From Selenomonas sp. AB3002 (GTDB taxonomy: Bacteria; Bacillota; Negativicutes; Selenomonadales; Selenomonadaceae), in assembly GCF_000702545.1 (NCBI RefSeq), contig NZ_JNIO01000002.1:496001-560000 (forward strand): a DNA stretch of 64,000 nucleotides. Direction: 5' to 3'. The translations under genes and the position numbers were made by a program. The stretch's first letter is position 1, and every line of letters begins with the position of its first letter. Of this stretch, positions 3,039 to 64,000 are shown one piece after another. The notes under the pieces are model-generated. The model did not search any database, was not told the origin of the DNA, and worked only from the letters and a program-made list of their open reading frames with translations.

Positions 3039-6000
3039 TCATTGCAGGAGTGACAGGACACTGCTACTGTTCTGATTTGCCTGAGCCAGCATAGACTGGG
3101 CCGCCTGGGAAAGAATATTGCTCTTGGTGTACTCCGTCATTTCCTTGGCCATGTCCGCATCCCGTATGGTGGATTCGGAAGCAGCGGTACTTTCCTGCTG
3201 GACGATGATGTTATCATGGGTTGTCTCCAGACGGCTGGTCTGGGCACCTACCAAGGTGGCAGCATCGGCAAGGTACTGGATGGCTTGGTCAAGCAGCCCT
3301 GGCTCGTCCTTAGTGACCATACGGGTGCCATCACGGGACATCTTGCCCGCCTGGTTGCCCAAAAGTTCTTCACGGTGCTCAACTGTGAGGACATCGTAAT
3401 CTGTATATTTTTTAATTTTTGTATTGTAGCCAAAGATATGATCCATAGAAGTCTGAGGAATTTGCAAATGAATATTCATGCTTGCCTTATCCGTGTGATG
3501 AATAATCAAGTCATTAACATAAAGTTTGCGAGTCATGAGCTGAACATCATCGTAGAGGCCATCGGCAAGTTTACTTCCTTTTTCTTGCAAATCCCTATAT
3601 CTTTCTCGCCGCTCTCTCAAATCAAACATACGATCATCATAAACTGTAAGTTTACCAGCTTCCGGATCTGCTGCAAAATGCAGAAAATGGGAGTGGTTAT
3701 TTTTCATATGCTCCAAGCCATCTCCTCCTTGGTCATATATTGTCTGAACCAAGGATTCAACATCCGTAACATTAGAAACATCAATCAATGTGGTTTTGAA
3801 ATCAGCTCCAGATATACCTTTAGGACGAAGCGCATTCTGTGAATCATTGCCATCTACGAATTGGAAATTCATCCACTGCTCAGGGCAAGTAGCACAATAG
3901 ACCCTGAACCCTTTATTATACAAATTATCAGGTATGCCTGAAACATTGGAAAAATCAATCGTATAGGCACTCATAATTCCCTTTGTAATACTAATAGTAT
4001 CGCTATTGCCAGCTAAATTCTTGTTGTAGGCATTAATTTTTAACGCTTTGGTTCCCCCAACACTGGCATCCTCAAAACAACTAACGCCATTGTAATATGA
4101 TGGATTGTTAGCGACCATCAAATTTATAAAAGCATCGGCAATAGTATCTCCATTACTTACAGCATTTCTCAAGGCATTCAAATCTATAACACGGTTTGAG
4201 GCAGAGTGCTTCATTGCATCAAAAGAAATATCTACTTTCGTATCTATAAATTCCCAACTGTAGCCAACAACATTAAGATTTTTACCCTTCAGTTCTTCAA
4301 TGAAGCTCTCCAATACATCACTGTCCGTGGTATCGTAGTCTGTAGGATTAGATAAGTCAATGGTATAGCTTGCCCTGTTGCCATCATGCTCTGCTCCAGC
4401 ATCTGCTCCTCCAGTAGCAGTCACTGTATTTGGATATGCCAGTACTGGCTGAAAGTTCACATCAGTATAGGTCGAATCCTTGCCAGGCGCGCCCTGCATA
4501 GCACCGTTTGAGTTGCTATCAAACCCGTCAATAACCGTAATAGTATCTCCCATATACTGTGACACCAAGCTAAGTGTGCCATTGGCATAAGAAACGTTAA
4601 CCCCACAACTTCTAGTGCTCTTATTATTTAAATTGTCCCAAACGCAAAGAGCCTGTGAATCATATTTAGCATTGAGATCAAAAATATAAACACCAGTATT
4701 GTCGCGAGGTATTTCACTTGGTGTGCCTCCACTGCCCCTAACAAAACGTACATACGCTGTACCAGTAGAACCAGTGATACGTACACCAGAACCTGCTTCC
4801 ACCGTATTAAGGTTGAGATTCATATTTGCATATGTTCCATTAACTCCATCTTTTTTTATTTCAGGAGACACTAAAACTGGTTTATAAACAGGAATATATT
4901 CATCAAGCTCATTTTTTTCGTATCCTATTAATACGTTATCATAAACAGCTGGTTGTACAGTCGCGTTTTGGGGTGCTGTACCACTTGCACTGATACTTCT
5001 GTTAGAGTTTTTAAAATAGGATAACTCCGTATGTACAGCTCCAGTACGTCCATAAGTTGTAGGCACACCATCGTGATTATTTCGCTTTGCAACCGCACCT
5101 GGTTCTGCCCATCCTTCGACCTTGGTATTATTAGCAGCCGAGCCATAAGTAGATGTAGTCATATCCACAGCAGTACCATTAGCTGTTGCATTACCAATAG
5201 CACCTACATTCTTGACAACACTTGCCACCTTTGCAGCTATATCAGCAGAGGTATTGCAGCCACTTACATCTATTTCGATTACATTTTCTTCAGTTGCAGT
5301 GCTGCCATGCCTATAATTCTTGCCTGGATTGGTAGTAAGAACATAATATTTTGTTCCATGAGAAGAGTCGCTAGTATAGAACCCCACACCATCAGCAGCA
5401 GTGCCGTCAGCATACATACTAAAATCCACTGATAACGTTCCTGGAGTAGATGTCTGCGGATTATCACGAGTGCTTGATGTGCCCCCTGACATTGTGACTA
5501 CACTATCCGACCCTAGCAATGGTTCTGCTGTGGAGGATATTTCATCAAAAAACGGCATCGTATCAAAGGGTCCCTCTATTCCATCCAGCCTATCGTACAC
5601 ATCTGGTATCAAATGAAGGTCACTGTCTTCTACAATCATTGGTTGCGGAAGTTTTTCCCAGGTGGTAATCCTTTCAATCTCCTTGCTACCCACCAACAGC
5701 AGCTTCCCATTGTAATTCGTCTCATACGCAATATCATTAATATGCTCGAACCCTTGGGAAATCTCCTTCTGAATGGTCACCCTGTCCAGATCCGTATTGC
5801 TGTCATTATCTGCATCTATGACCTTGGCCTTGATGTTCTTCATAATCTCTATCTGCTGCTGAATGCCACCTGCCGCCACATTCAGCAGGGAAATGCCCGT
5901 CTGCACGTTCGCCTCGTCCCTGTCCAATGCACGTTTGCGCACCCGCATTCTTTCAGAAATGGCATACTCAGAGGCTCCGTCCCCGGCGCCCACGATTTTT

Positions 6001-50231: not shown

Positions 50232-50465
50232 TTAGGATTCACGCGGCGGCATCACTGCGCTGAAATCCAGATTCTTGGGCACCGGAGTAGCTGCCTTCTG
50301 GTTTTCCTCCTGGATGGCACGGTAGATTTCCCCGCGGTAAATCTTGATCTCACGCGGCGCATCGATGGCCAGTCGGACATTCTCGCCCTGCACTTCTACC
50401 ACATTGATGACAACGTCATCACCTATCATAATCTGCTGTCTCGGTTTGCGTGTAAGAACTAACAT
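50232..50465 (-). CDS. csrA: Carbon storage/translation regulator CsrA
   Basis: The 77-residue RNA-binding protein starts MLVLTRKPRQQIMIGDDVVI and has VRLAIDAPREIKIYRGEIYRA with the conserved surface Arg residues. The C-terminal extension (about residues 55-77) is longer than in E. coli. It binds GGA motifs and in Firmicutes represses flagellin mRNA until FliW sequesters it. Flagellin leaders in this window carry suitable GGA pairs. fliW is immediately upstream in the operon. The ribosome binding site is AAGGAGG. Confidence 0.97.
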   Translation of the reverse strand: MLVLTRKPRQQIMIGDDVVINVVEVQGENVRLAIDAPREIKIYRGEIYRAIQEENQKAATPVPKNLDFSAVMPPRES

Positions 50466-60705: not shown

Positions 60706-60721
60706 TTCTTTGTTTGGTTAC

Positions 60722-60858
60722 GGCTGTTCATTTTCTTTGGCGCAAAGAAAACGAACCAAAAGAGTAAACATGCCGGTGGCATGTTTACGCGGACTGAAAT
60801 CACATCCTGTGATTTCCGCGTCCGCGGGGCCCATCCTTGGGCCCTAGGGTTCGGATAA
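60722..60858. repeat. Modular palindromic repeat, copy 1
   Basis: Successive palindromes: TTTTCTTTG-GCG-CAAAGAAAA (60731-60751), GTAAACATGCC-GGT-GGCATGTTTAC (60764-60788), a GAAATCAC...GTGATTTC stem inside a CGCGGAC...GTCCGCG stem, and GGGCCCATCC-TTGGGCCC. Parts recur in copies 2-4. Confidence 0.8.
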
Positions 60859-61713: not shown

Positions 61714-61843
61714 GGCCTGCGGCCTGTACTTTTCTTTGGCGCAAAGAAAAGTACCAAAAGAAGTAAACATGCCGGTGGCATGTTTACGGGGCTGCATTCC
61801 TTCACGGAATCCAAAGCCCGTCAGGGCGCCCATCCATGGGCGC
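61714..61843. repeat. Modular palindromic repeat, copy 2
   Basis: Shares with copy 1 the CTTTG-GCG-CAAAG palindrome, here extended by GTACTTTT/AAAAGTAC, and the GTAAACATGCC/GGCATGTTTAC module. It then has its own GGGCGCCCATCCATGGGCGCC module. It begins at the stop of the kinase gene. Confidence 0.8.
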
Positions 61844-61888: not shown

Positions 61889-62548
61889 ATGATCGTTTAT
61901 GCTACACATAAGGGCGGCAGATACCTGCCGATTGAAGAAAGTCTGGCTGAACAGCCGGAGGGCAAGCGCAATATCTATGTGAACCTTACCAATAAATGCA
62001 ACTGCGCCTGCACCTTCTGCCTGCGCAATATGAAGGAAATGGCTGAAGAGCACAGCCTTTGGCTGAAAAGCGAGCCCACCGTTGACGAAGTGAAAAATGA
62101 ACTCAATGCCCTGCCCTGGGACAAGATTGCCGAAGTGGTGTTCTGCGGGTTCGGAGAGCCCACCCTGCGTCTCCCTGCCCTGGTGGAACTGCTGCACTTC
62201 GTGAAGGAGAATTACCCCGAGCATCCCACCAGAGTCAATACCAACGGACTCAGCGAGCTGCAGTACGGACATGAGACAGCCTCTGCCTTCCGCGGCATCC
62301 TCGATACTGTTTCCATCAGCCTCAATGCCTCCTCTCCAGAGAAATATTATGAACTGACCCGGGCTAAATATGGTCTGGAATCTTATGAGGGCATGCTGAC
62401 CTTCGCGGAGCACTGCAAGGAATATGTGCCAAATGTGGTACTTACTATCGTTGATCATGTGACCAGCGAGGAAGATATTGAGAAGTGCAGGAAAATCTGC
62501 GAGAGCAGAGGGTTGACACTGCGGGTGCGTCCGTATGAAAACTCATAA
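61889..62548 (+). CDS. TatD-linked radical SAM protein
   Basis: The 219-residue protein has the radical SAM cluster C-NCA-C-TF-C near residues 38-45 in LTNKCNCACTFCLRN. FCGFGEPTLRL and TVSISLNASSPEKYYEL are the SAM-binding and later barrel strands. The context around the cluster (IYVNLTNKCNC, SLWLKSEPTVDEVK) resembles the short TatD-associated radical SAM family (TIGR04038-like). No TatD nuclease gene is in the window. The reaction is unknown. The ribosome binding site is AAAAGGAGAA. Confidence 0.8.
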   Translation: MIVYATHKGGRYLPIEESLAEQPEGKRNIYVNLTNKCNCACTFCLRNMKEMAEEHSLWLKSEPTVDEVKNELNALPWDKIAEVVFCGFGEPTLRLPALVELLHFVKENYPEHPTRVNTNGLSELQYGHETASAFRGILDTVSISLNASSPEKYYELTRAKYGLESYEGMLTFAEHCKEYVPNVVLTIVDHVTSEEDIEKCRKICESRGLTLRVRPYENS

Positions 62549-62649
62549 GTTTCGGCTGTTCATTTTCTTTGGCGCAAAGAAAACGTGGCCTTGAATTTGT
62601 CCTAAATTCAACGGCCACAGGGCCCCATCCCTGGGGCCCGGGGTTCGAT
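62549..62649. repeat. Modular palindromic repeat, copy 3
   Basis: Starts right at the radical SAM stop. Modules: TTTTCTTTG-GCG-CAAAGAAAA, GTGGCC...GGCCAC enclosing TTGAATTT/AAATTCAA, and GGGCCCCATCCCTGGGGCCC. It shares its first and last modules with copy 4. Confidence 0.8.
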
Positions 62650-62664
62650 AATTGCATACACACT

Positions 62665-62706
62665 AAAAAGCGGCTTGCATCTTATCGGATACGCAAGCCG
62701 CTTTTA
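62665..62706. terminator. Bidirectional intrinsic terminator ending the candidate ncRNA
   Basis: GCGGCTTGC (62670-62678) pairs with GCAAGCCGC (62693-62701). TTTTT follows on the minus strand and TTTT on the plus strand. On the minus strand it ends the transcript from the 63238-63266 promoter; on the plus strand it can end the radical SAM transcript. Confidence 0.85.
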
Positions 62707-63231
62707 TACAGTAGAAACCATCAAAATTTTACCCTTCTTATTCACTTGTCTGCCATGGCTCCCTCTCGAGCAGGAACCGAAGCGAAGTATTTGATTGCTT
62801 GGCCCAAACATTAGTGATTCAGCATCACAACTTCAGTGTACACCACACATACCGTTTGCCGTTACCGATAACGATAGGATACCGATTGGTTTACCTTGGT
62901 TTCGAATGGCTAACGATGATTCGTAAAGATACCCGGGATAGAGAACCCCTTTGGAACCGGCCTCGTGCCTTTTATCCACCTAGCTCTGGGTACGACTGGC
63001 GACCAAGTCATCATCACGTCCCATTTTCTGTCTGGCAGATGCTTTCACTTCATCTTCTGCACTGCTATCCGGAACTCAAAGGAAGCTCGCGGCAAGACAT
63101 CTTCAATAACCGCTCACATCCTTTCACGCAAGGGATTGAAGAGAGCCTTTTTCGGCTGGTAGACACCCTGAGGAGCAATCACCCTCTAGGACTCATGCCC
63201 ATTCGGCTTATCTATCCATCTCCTCTTTACG
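62665..63231 (-). ncRNA. Candidate large structured non-coding RNA (about 565 nt)
   Basis: On the minus strand a near-consensus promoter (63238-63266) starts a transcript that runs through sequence with no ORF of note and ends at a strong terminator. Many local stems are visible, such as CGTTA-TCGG-TAACG, a GCAGA...CATCTGC hairpin, and CTCCTC pairing with GAGGAG near the 5' end. The only ORF crossing this region is on the plus strand, starts at a TTG without a ribosome binding site and has an odd His/Trp/Tyr-rich composition. Size and context recall large bacterial RNAs such as OLE, ROOL or GOLLD, but I did not recognise a family signature. Searches against tmRNA, RNase P and 6S patterns by eye were negative. 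Confidence 0.5.
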
Positions 63232-63237
63232 ATTATT

Positions 63238-63266
63238 ATTATAGCACTCTATTCAGACTATTGCAA
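63238..63266 (-). promoter_or_regulatory. Strong promoter for the candidate ncRNA
   Basis: TTGCAA (63261-63266), 17 bases, TATAAT (63238-63243) on the minus strand, with an extended TGC before the -10 and an A/T-rich upstream stretch. This is typical of stable-RNA promoters. Confidence 0.75.
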
Positions 63267-63341
63267 TGGTTTTGATATAATTTCTTAAAAAAAATTCGTC
63301 TTTGTCAAACACGCTGACGTTGCGTTATAATTATAAAGTCA

Positions 63342-63475
63342 AGTTTCGGCTGTTCATTTTCTTTGGCGCAAAGAAAATGAACCAAAAGAAGTAAACATGC
63401 CAGTGGCATGTTTACGGCCTTGAATTTGTCCTAAATTCAACGGCCACAGGGCCCCATCCATGGGGCCCGGAGTAC
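63342..63475. repeat. Modular palindromic repeat, copy 4
   Basis: Contains the CTTTG-GCG-CAAAG, GTAAACATGCC/GGCATGTTTAC, GGCC...GGCC (TTGAATTT/AAATTCAA) and GGGCCCCATCCATGGGGCCC modules, so it combines modules of copies 1 and 3. It lies just before the yqeB-like gene. Confidence 0.8.
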
Positions 63476-63510
63476 GATGTAGTGTATGTGCAAAAAGAGG
63501 AGCAACTGCC

Positions 63511-64000
63511 ATGAAACATTTGGTCATCGTCCGGGGCGGCGGAGAGCTGGCTTCCGGGGTCATCCATTGCCTGTACAAGGCGGGGCTTAGGGTCATCATC
63601 CTGGAACAGGAGCAGCCCACCGCCACCCGCCGCAGAGTTTCCTTTGCCGATGCTATTTACCGGGGTGAGGCCACTGTGGAAAGGCTCACCTGCCATCTGG
63701 CTCAGAACGTAAAAGAAGCGAAGCAGAGGGTGAAGAAGGGCGAGCTCATCATGCTCTGCGACCCCAAAGGCGAGAGCATCAAAGAACTGAAGCCCCGGGT
63801 AGTGGTAGATGCCCTGCTGCGCCATGAAAATGTAGCAGGCACCAACCGTGAGATGGCTGACCACACGGTGGCTCTCGGCCCCGGCTTCTGCGCCGGGCGC
63901 GATGTGGATGTGGTGGTGGAAACCATGCGCGGCCACAACCTGGGCCGCCTCATATATGAAGGCTACTCCTACCGCGACCAGCAGAGCGACGGAGGCCTGG
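63511..64000 (+). CDS. yqeB: YqeB/EF2563-family molybdenum hydroxylase-associated protein, partial
   Basis: The frame is open from the ATG at 63511 (ribosome binding site AGAGGAG) to the window edge, 163 codons. It starts MKHLVIVRGGGELASGVIHCL, an N-terminal Rossmann-like strand, and continues AGLRVIILEQEQPTATRRRVSFADAIY, then VVDALLRHENVAG and TVALGPGFCAGRDVDVVVETMRGHNLG. This matches the EF2563/YqeB family associated with selenium-dependent molybdenum hydroxylases. Whether the maturation partner and hydroxylase genes follow cannot be seen. The C-terminus is missing. Confidence 0.85.
   Translation, partial: MKHLVIVRGGGELASGVIHCLYKAGLRVIILEQEQPTATRRRVSFADAIYRGEATVERLTCHLAQNVKEAKQRVKKGELIMLCDPKGESIKELKPRVVVDALLRHENVAGTNREMADHTVALGPGFCAGRDVDVVVETMRGHNLGRLIYEGYSYRDQQSDGGL

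Follow-up and report, generated by a model that had tools for sequence, protein, structure and literature searches.

Only a few bacterial RNAs are large, structured and without a known function. Of the described RNAs that invite comparison with the locus presented here, OLE binds Oap proteins and has a membrane location, whereas ROOL and GOLLD are associated with phages, prophages or plasmids. Other structured RNAs combine their fold with a short reading frame: RNAIII (hld) and SgrS (SgrT) are regulatory, and tmRNA contains an internal short frame that is read by ribosomes. Published abstracts on OLE mention both OapC and the membrane, and VcdRP is described as a dual-function RNA with a 29-residue protein.

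We analyzed a 64,000-nucleotide stretch of the genome of Selenomonas sp. AB3002 (the window; contig C2) and find in it a gene for a member of a new family of large structured RNAs, with a mini-ORF module as its unusual trait. It resembles OLE, which published abstracts describe as an RNA of about 600 nt with an intricate structure and conserved stretches from Gram-positive extremophiles and anaerobes, but differs in giving no match to the Rfam model even at an E value of 10, in its yqeB and radical SAM neighbors, and in a conserved module of Shine-Dalgarno (SD)-like element, start and stop codon. ROOL and GOLLD are also large and ornate bacterial RNAs; here, in contrast, there is no Rfam match, the chromosomal neighbors are conserved, and, at the sensitivity used, homologues are absent from phages and plasmids (0 hits by blastn) and from viral contigs (0 by exact pattern). 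With RNAIII, SgrS and VcdRP the locus shares a short frame within a structured, putatively regulatory RNA, although this frame has only 9-18 codons, starts with UUG or CUG and shows no significant conservation of its peptide. As for tmRNA, the genome's copy is found on contig C8 (176.8 bits), and ARAGORN detects none in the window.

Results

Search for Known Families

The initial annotation had recognized no known family signature in the region, and database comparison agrees. At gathering thresholds Rfam 15 returned nothing in the window and nothing in nine related loci, and at E values up to 10 the RNA region produced only 12 rows (best E 0.11), all far below cut-off; the OLE, ROOL and GOLLD models matched under neither setting. 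RNase P, tmRNA and 6S RNA were rejected as identities because the genome's own copies, all over cut-off, are located on C8 and not on the contig of the window. A further Rfam search of ten divergent loci at E values up to 1 gave 39 rows; those near the gene that could be placed are P31 (E 0.078) and L20_leader (E 0.5) (3′ flank of L155), both under cut-off, and two tRNAs and many microRNA rows fall elsewhere in the loci. Two stretches, 4457-4670 of locus L139 and 3520-3565 of locus L137, attract many sub-cut-off microRNA models on both strands and are probably perfect inverted repeats. No account of this RNA was found in the titles and abstracts searched, nor in the passages available from PMC6429828, PMC8632094 and PMC11109978, whose supplements were outside the scope. 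The RNA is undescribed in this sense, namely absent from Rfam 15 and unseen in the literature searched, supplements not covered.

A Predicted Transcription Unit with Its Own Promoter and Terminator

The RNA gene spans about 568 nt on the minus strand (62664-63231), its start inferred from the -10 element and its end from the terminator, with no experimental mapping of either. The promoter (63238-63266, minus strand) comprises a -35 element TTGCAA (63266-63261), a 17-base spacer ending in TGC, and an extended -10 element TG.TATAAT (TATAAT at 63243-63238). All 55 homologous loci have a TTG -35, a spacer of exactly 17 bases and TG ahead of the -10, and the full TTGCAA recurs in 35 of them. It should be borne in mind that 44 of the 55 units were cut at a promoter-like match; the same form is also present in all 11 units (L131-L141) that were cut by a covariance-model hit alone. 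Judged across the homologues compared, the recurrence of this geometry is more than chance. At the other end, an intrinsic terminator (62667-62704, minus strand) is formed by a 14-bp stem with a 10-base loop followed by T's; a first scan admitted only loops of 3-8 bases and therefore overlooked it. A scripted search for a stem of at least 10 pairs ahead of a T-rich stretch succeeded at the 3′ end of 49 of the 55 loci. In the remaining ones (L011, L012, L031, L049, L052 and L155) the script's choice is weak or not the most plausible candidate, and in L049 and L052 a hairpin is visible despite that poor choice. The promoter and strong terminator that the initial annotation had read from this strand are confirmed, and the comparative data support its inference that a large structured RNA is encoded here together with a promoter and a terminator of its own. 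That the locus is an independent transcription unit nevertheless rests on sequence evidence only, transcription itself being inferred.

Direct copies of a modular intergenic repeat lie on both sides of the unit, as that annotation had also stated, at 62547-62649 and 63341-63478; further copies at 60715-60792 and 61714-61791 bring the number in the window to four. The repeat modules are TTTTCTTTGGCGCAAAGAAAA, a GTAAACATGCC hairpin and a GGGCCCC block, some copies lacking one or another of them. The short flanks of L002-L005 look unlike the repeats that flank the RNA gene in the window. Separately, the 6S RNA gene of the same genome (L091, G000:C8:1887060-1887233) is preceded by TTGCAA-N17-TATCAT with an extended -10 (read by eye). 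TTGCAA-N17 with an extended -10 may be a promoter form shared by the lineage's stable RNAs, an inference drawn from the likeness to 6S.

Distribution and Length Variation

The homologous set comprises 55 loci from 54 Selenomonadaceae genomes, representing 16 of the 30 genera. A DNA search recovered the region in 13 of 60 relatives (including the genome of the window); DNA similarity identifies homologues in 41 of the 189 genomes of the family, from 8 of its 30 genera, and a covariance model of the 5′ domain (R1) detects 52 of the 189 (14 of 30 genera). A class-wide model search of 380 genomes returned the same 52 only and none outside the family, under strict filters that lose weak matches. 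No model hit was obtained in the other 137 family genomes; since these are the majority, the RNA is not essential to the family. Synteny searches beside the radical SAM gene covered 30 hit-less genomes, of which 26 matched and 19 loci were read, and added two homologues, L155 (genome G017) and L156 (G027), both without the P1-P3 region. Both still have a perfect SD and strands of the P5 type, which makes the 5′ module look dispensable. One genome bin, G199, carries two copies of the RNA gene (L043 and L057); it is 88% complete and 4% contaminated and perhaps holds two strains.

An exact-pattern scan of a collection of 84,980 species found 33 stretches, whose titles name, within Selenomonas, S. 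ruminantium (including HD4), S. montiformis, S. bovis, S. ruminis and others, and beyond it Mitsuokella (M. multacida, M. jalaludinii and oral taxon 131), a Megamonas MAG, and Selenomonadaceae and Veillonellaceae MAGs. Named strains with the RNA are Selenomonas ruminantium HD4, Mitsuokella multacida DSM 20544 and M. jalaludinii DSM 13811. From start to terminator the RNA measures 559-601 nt, save in five members of group g25 (452-455 nt) and in L049 (541 nt), and the g18 and g27 forms are shorter at about 325-370 nt. Locus L052 (G201) has an insertion of about 130 bases between P3 and the SD-like element.

Genomic Neighborhood and Descent

Downstream and convergent with the RNA gene lies a gene for a radical SAM protein of the TatD-associated type (61889-62548, plus strand; TIGR04038 182.1 bits, cut-off 129.7), which also scores 234 bits against TIGR04100, under the cut-off of 262; beyond it follow a pyridoxamine kinase gene and queF. 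Upstream and divergent is yqeB (63511-64000, plus strand), cut by the end of the window and scoring 189.2 bits against TIGR03309 on the partial protein (cut-off 220); yqeB adjoins the RNA gene in other loci too. Of the 55 RNA-bearing loci, 40 include the radical SAM gene in the fetched stretch; the other 15 do not, some of them being shortened by contig ends. In four genomes without an RNA hit (G036, G062, G025 and G008) a yqeB-like start comes directly after the radical SAM gene (by eye). When the RNA's occurrence is mapped onto a tree of 53 radical SAM proteins, its presence or absence requires 8 changes, compared with 14.6 when labels are shuffled. This distribution fits vertical descent of the RNA gene with several losses, as far as the sequence comparison can tell; the backbone of the tree has little resolution, and gains remain possible.

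Comparative Support for the Fold

The initial annotation had pointed to many local stems, which are suggestive but weak when taken alone: the single sequence folds with a z-score of -1.86, and 3 of 100 shuffles fold as well. Covariation among homologues, in turn, was found by the helix scan, by counts over P1 and P5, and in a sequence-only alignment. An antiparallel helix scan of a 39-sequence alignment placed four distinct helices above the maximum of a parallel-strand null (1.33): the terminator, which is the top covarying helix of the RNA (5.02), two 3′ hairpins (1.80 and 1.42) and the outer P5 helix (1.37). None of P1, P2, P3 and P4 rose above that maximum. The scan, clade-wise folding and the helix counts described below replaced an APC-corrected G-test over all column pairs, which failed to separate helices from relatedness and in which many top pairs were noncomplementary.

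All elements of the fold are given on the minus strand. P1 joins GAGGAGA (63219-63225) to UCUCUUC (63138-63144), the CUUC of which is common to P4. Across 23 representatives, 158 of its 160 cells are paired, individual positions showing up to three pair types; none of 2000 shuffles of the 3′ letters reached this count (shuffled maximum 153). P2 is an arm with inner loops (63158-63217; 5′ strand 63217-63210, 3′ strand 63163-63158), and P3 is a hairpin GCC-GAAAAA-GGC (63145-63156), the most conserved block and the core of the pattern scan. In alignment A1, built by MAFFT from 27 sequences without recourse to structure, P1 is paired in 93.7% of cells with one-sided changes only, and P2 in 77.9% with two-sided changes in five of its six pairs. 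P1-P3 taken together pair in 89.5% of A1 cells versus 36-53% once the 3′ side is slid by 1-3 columns. Two of the five measures applied to A1 were not unusual: shuffling gave at least as many two-sided pairs in 87 of 500 trials, and at least as many pair types in 113 of 500.

P4 (63101-63141) pairs CUUCAAU (63141-63135) with AUUGAAG (63107-63101); it covers the UUG start codon described below and competes with P1 for CUUC. It was not seen in the g25 lineage, and in L012 only four pairs are visible by eye. Under the energy model, in 16 of the 18 homologues folded, the shared CUUC strand has a pairing probability of at least 0.2 with its P1 partner and likewise with its P4 partner; P4 pairing is the stronger of the two in 11 of the 18, and pairing of the start codon tracks it (r 0.89). 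In L008 the strand is committed almost entirely to P4, and in L011 to P1 alone. When four clades were folded separately by alifold, three gave P1-P3, whereas g10 shows P4 instead.

Further downstream, the P5 domain (62956-63073) is closed by an outer helix (63073-63069/62960-62956) and an inner one (63062-63059/62968-62965). Over 32 sequences 275 of 288 cells pair, as against a shuffled maximum of 238; eight of the nine pairs are canonical in all 32, with up to four pair types per pair, and the outermost forms in only 19 of the 32 and is absent from the window RNA. The strands vary among homologues as CCGG/CCGG, CCUAG/CUAGG, CUGA/UCAG, UUGAG/CUCAA and GGCGA/UCGCC. Within P5 a central arm, GGGACGU ... 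GUCGUACCC (62988-63022), appears in separate alifold runs of all four clades. The 3′ domain (62757-62809) contains the two hairpins recovered by the helix scan, GUUU..AAGC (62809-62797; score 1.42) and GGUUCCU..GGGAGCC (62778-62757; 1.80). It is important to note that the registers of P1 and P5 were set by hand with complementarity in view and so lean towards pairing, and that the sequences counted (23 of 55 loci for P1, 32 of 55 for P5) are hand-picked lineage representatives from which near-copies were left out; the P5 count also omits L049, L052 and L155, and L155 and L156 have no P1.

A Putative Ribosome-Binding Element and a Mini-ORF

Between P3 and P5 lies an SD-like loop, GAAAGGAUGUGA (63114-63125, minus strand), in which 11 of 12 letters agree with GAAAGGAGGUGA, the complement of the 16S 3′ end; the 16S tail sequence GGATCACCTCCTTTC occurs seven times in the genome. 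In all 10 representatives, no stretch of the RNA matches the anti-SD sequence better than this loop. The strength of the site is ordinary, as at least one of 30 shuffles has an equal or better site in 9 of the 10 RNAs, so that the argument lies in the fixed place of the element and not in its energy. For the two forms without P1-P3, L155 and L156, the best sites in the first ~370 bases are GAGGAGGUG and AAAAGGAGGUG, at the corresponding place and with a perfect SD.

About ten bases past GGAUG follows a UUG or CUG, a spacing longer than optimal between SD and start. In the window this codon opens a mini-ORF of 13 codons plus UAG (63065-63106, minus strand): UUG AAG AUG UCU UGC CGC GAG CUU CCU UUG AGU UCC GGA UAG. 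Ribosome-binding site, start codon and open frame are kept in 53 of the 55 loci, each with UUG or CUG at the homologous place and an in-frame stop. All 51 such loci read by script stop after 9-14 codons, and L049 and L052 have CUG frames of 18 and 14 codons respectively; L012 and L155 carry UCG at the start position. Where present the homologous start is always UUG or CUG, never AUG, and in seven loci the following codon is AUG. The other frames behave differently: frame +1 meets an immediate stop in 44 of 51 loci (the UGA within UUGA), and in frame +2 the stops spread from 2 to 38 codons, one locus having none within 40. Across 35 sequences in eight clade groups no in-frame stop interrupts the mini-ORF, an outcome matched by 0.2% of 5000 column shuffles, whereas its amino-acid (BLOSUM) score is not significant (307 of 5000 shuffles as high). 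This codon test takes in 35 of the 55 loci, with near-identical rows and lineages lacking an equal-length partner omitted.

The stop codon sits in the 5′ side of P5 and stays in frame where the distance from start to P5 differs, as in ACC UAG CUAG of L007. Letters near the start and the stop are also held by P4 and P5, and part of the conservation of the frame could be structural. Comparison of the homologues leaves the impression that frame and stop look selected, and the peptide hardly so. The claim of the initial annotation that this strand has no ORF needs amendment, as it overlooked the SD-like loop with the conserved 13-codon UUG frame behind it, and as there is also a 48-codon GTG frame (62833-62979), itself broken in near relatives and discarded. 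Its description of a large structured noncoding RNA holds for size and structure, but the presence of a conserved ribosome-binding element together with a mini-ORF makes the noncoding part doubtful. Another candidate frame, GUGAAGUACAAG..., does not hold up across genera when read by eye.

Discussion

In light of this comparison we propose, with a probability of roughly 0.5 and in the absence of transcript or translation data, that the locus is an old, mostly single-copy RNA gene of the Selenomonadaceae, inherited vertically with losses, whose product acts in trans, is read by ribosomes and is gated by translation; it is probably a regulatory RNA with its folding tied to translation. The proposal starts from features established by comparing homologous sequences, namely the conservation itself, promoter, terminator, P1, P2, P5, the SD-like element, and the frame with its stop. 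Transcription, translation, switching and effector action are inferred, as is everything past a sequence that is conserved and folded. The structured RNA of ~570 nt (about 325-600 nt in relatives) would act in trans and be read by ribosomes, its 5′ part serving as a small decision module. There the 30S subunit would pair with the GAAAGGAUGUGA loop and start at UUG (CUG in some relatives). With P4 formed this start codon would be buried and with P1 formed it would be accessible, since the two helices draw on one and the same CUUC strand. A ribosome reading the 9-18 codons would reach the stop within the 5′ side of P5, and by virtue of that position termination there should unwind P5, on which a putative central effector domain rests. 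Translation would in this way gate the fold of the large RNA, with the short peptide as a by-product or a second output. Whether this amounts to a new RNA class, in which a ribosome reading a mini-gene of ~13 codons switches the fold of an ornate RNA whose trans activity reports the state of translation initiation, is a suggestion we make only tentatively.

Other explanations must be weighed against this one. The RNA may be a purely noncoding scaffold or enzyme-like RNA that works in a ribonucleoprotein in the manner of OLE, its purine-rich loop binding a protein or RNA and its frame a structural by-product. Such an RNA is possible, if short of even odds: it would account for a covarying structure, for amino-acid conservation that falls short of significance, for two homologues without a UUG or CUG start, and for an SD-like site of ordinary strength, but it leaves unexplained why that element should outrank the other anti-SD sites in all 10 RNAs, why a perfect SD persists in two forms devoid of the 5′ domain, and why an in-frame stop is found in 53 of 55 loci despite altered lengths. 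The SD-like loop might alternatively be a 30S decoy that titrates the anti-SD sequence and damps initiation without productive translation, as its complementarity to the 16S 3′ end (11 of 12 letters, of a sequence found seven times in the genome) would allow. We consider this unlikely, given that a decoy would need neither a similarly spaced start codon nor an in-frame stop and that each RNA has one main site. A shade less credible again is a messenger with long structured ends whose product is a signal or toxin-like peptide of 12-14 residues; a C-terminal (S/T)D and starts of the LKIS or LKKS type recur in several lineages, yet the column-shuffle BLOSUM test is not significant, the last codons are also pinned by P5, and the most conserved letters lie outside the frame.

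Two further possibilities carry little weight. CsrB/RsmZ-type sponges display many GGA motifs in loops, the window encodes csrA (about 50307-50465, minus strand; PF02599, 86.5 bits), and AAAGGAUGU resembles the consensus of a CsrA site; a CsrB-like sponge for CsrA is nonetheless very improbable, there being no general enrichment of GGA, which was counted over whole RNAs without separating loops and in 8 of 10 RNAs comes close to expectation or falls short of it (7 observed versus 11.7 expected in the window RNA). The exceptions are L012, clearly above expectation (21 versus 13.8), and L007, mildly so (12 versus 8.6), with L008 above it for ANGGA (7 versus 3.5). Finally, the plus-strand frame at 62799-63275, expression of which, with ribosome footprints, the initial annotation named as refuting its reading, is open for 158 codons in the window, but at the sequence level it is broken by stops and frameshifts in the nearest relatives, L002-L005, and a protein encoded there would have to coexist with a promoter, terminator and covariation that all belong to the minus strand; we give it next to no credence.

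The preferred reading of a ribosome-read, translation-gated RNA lends itself to experiment, since the presence of the gene in named strains means that the RNA can be tested. Within the family some relatives have no RNA at the same locus, and in others its length ranges from about 325 to 600 nt, marking out a minimal core. If the ribosome-landing module is real, a single start codon would offer a direct handle on the function of this Selenomonadaceae RNA.
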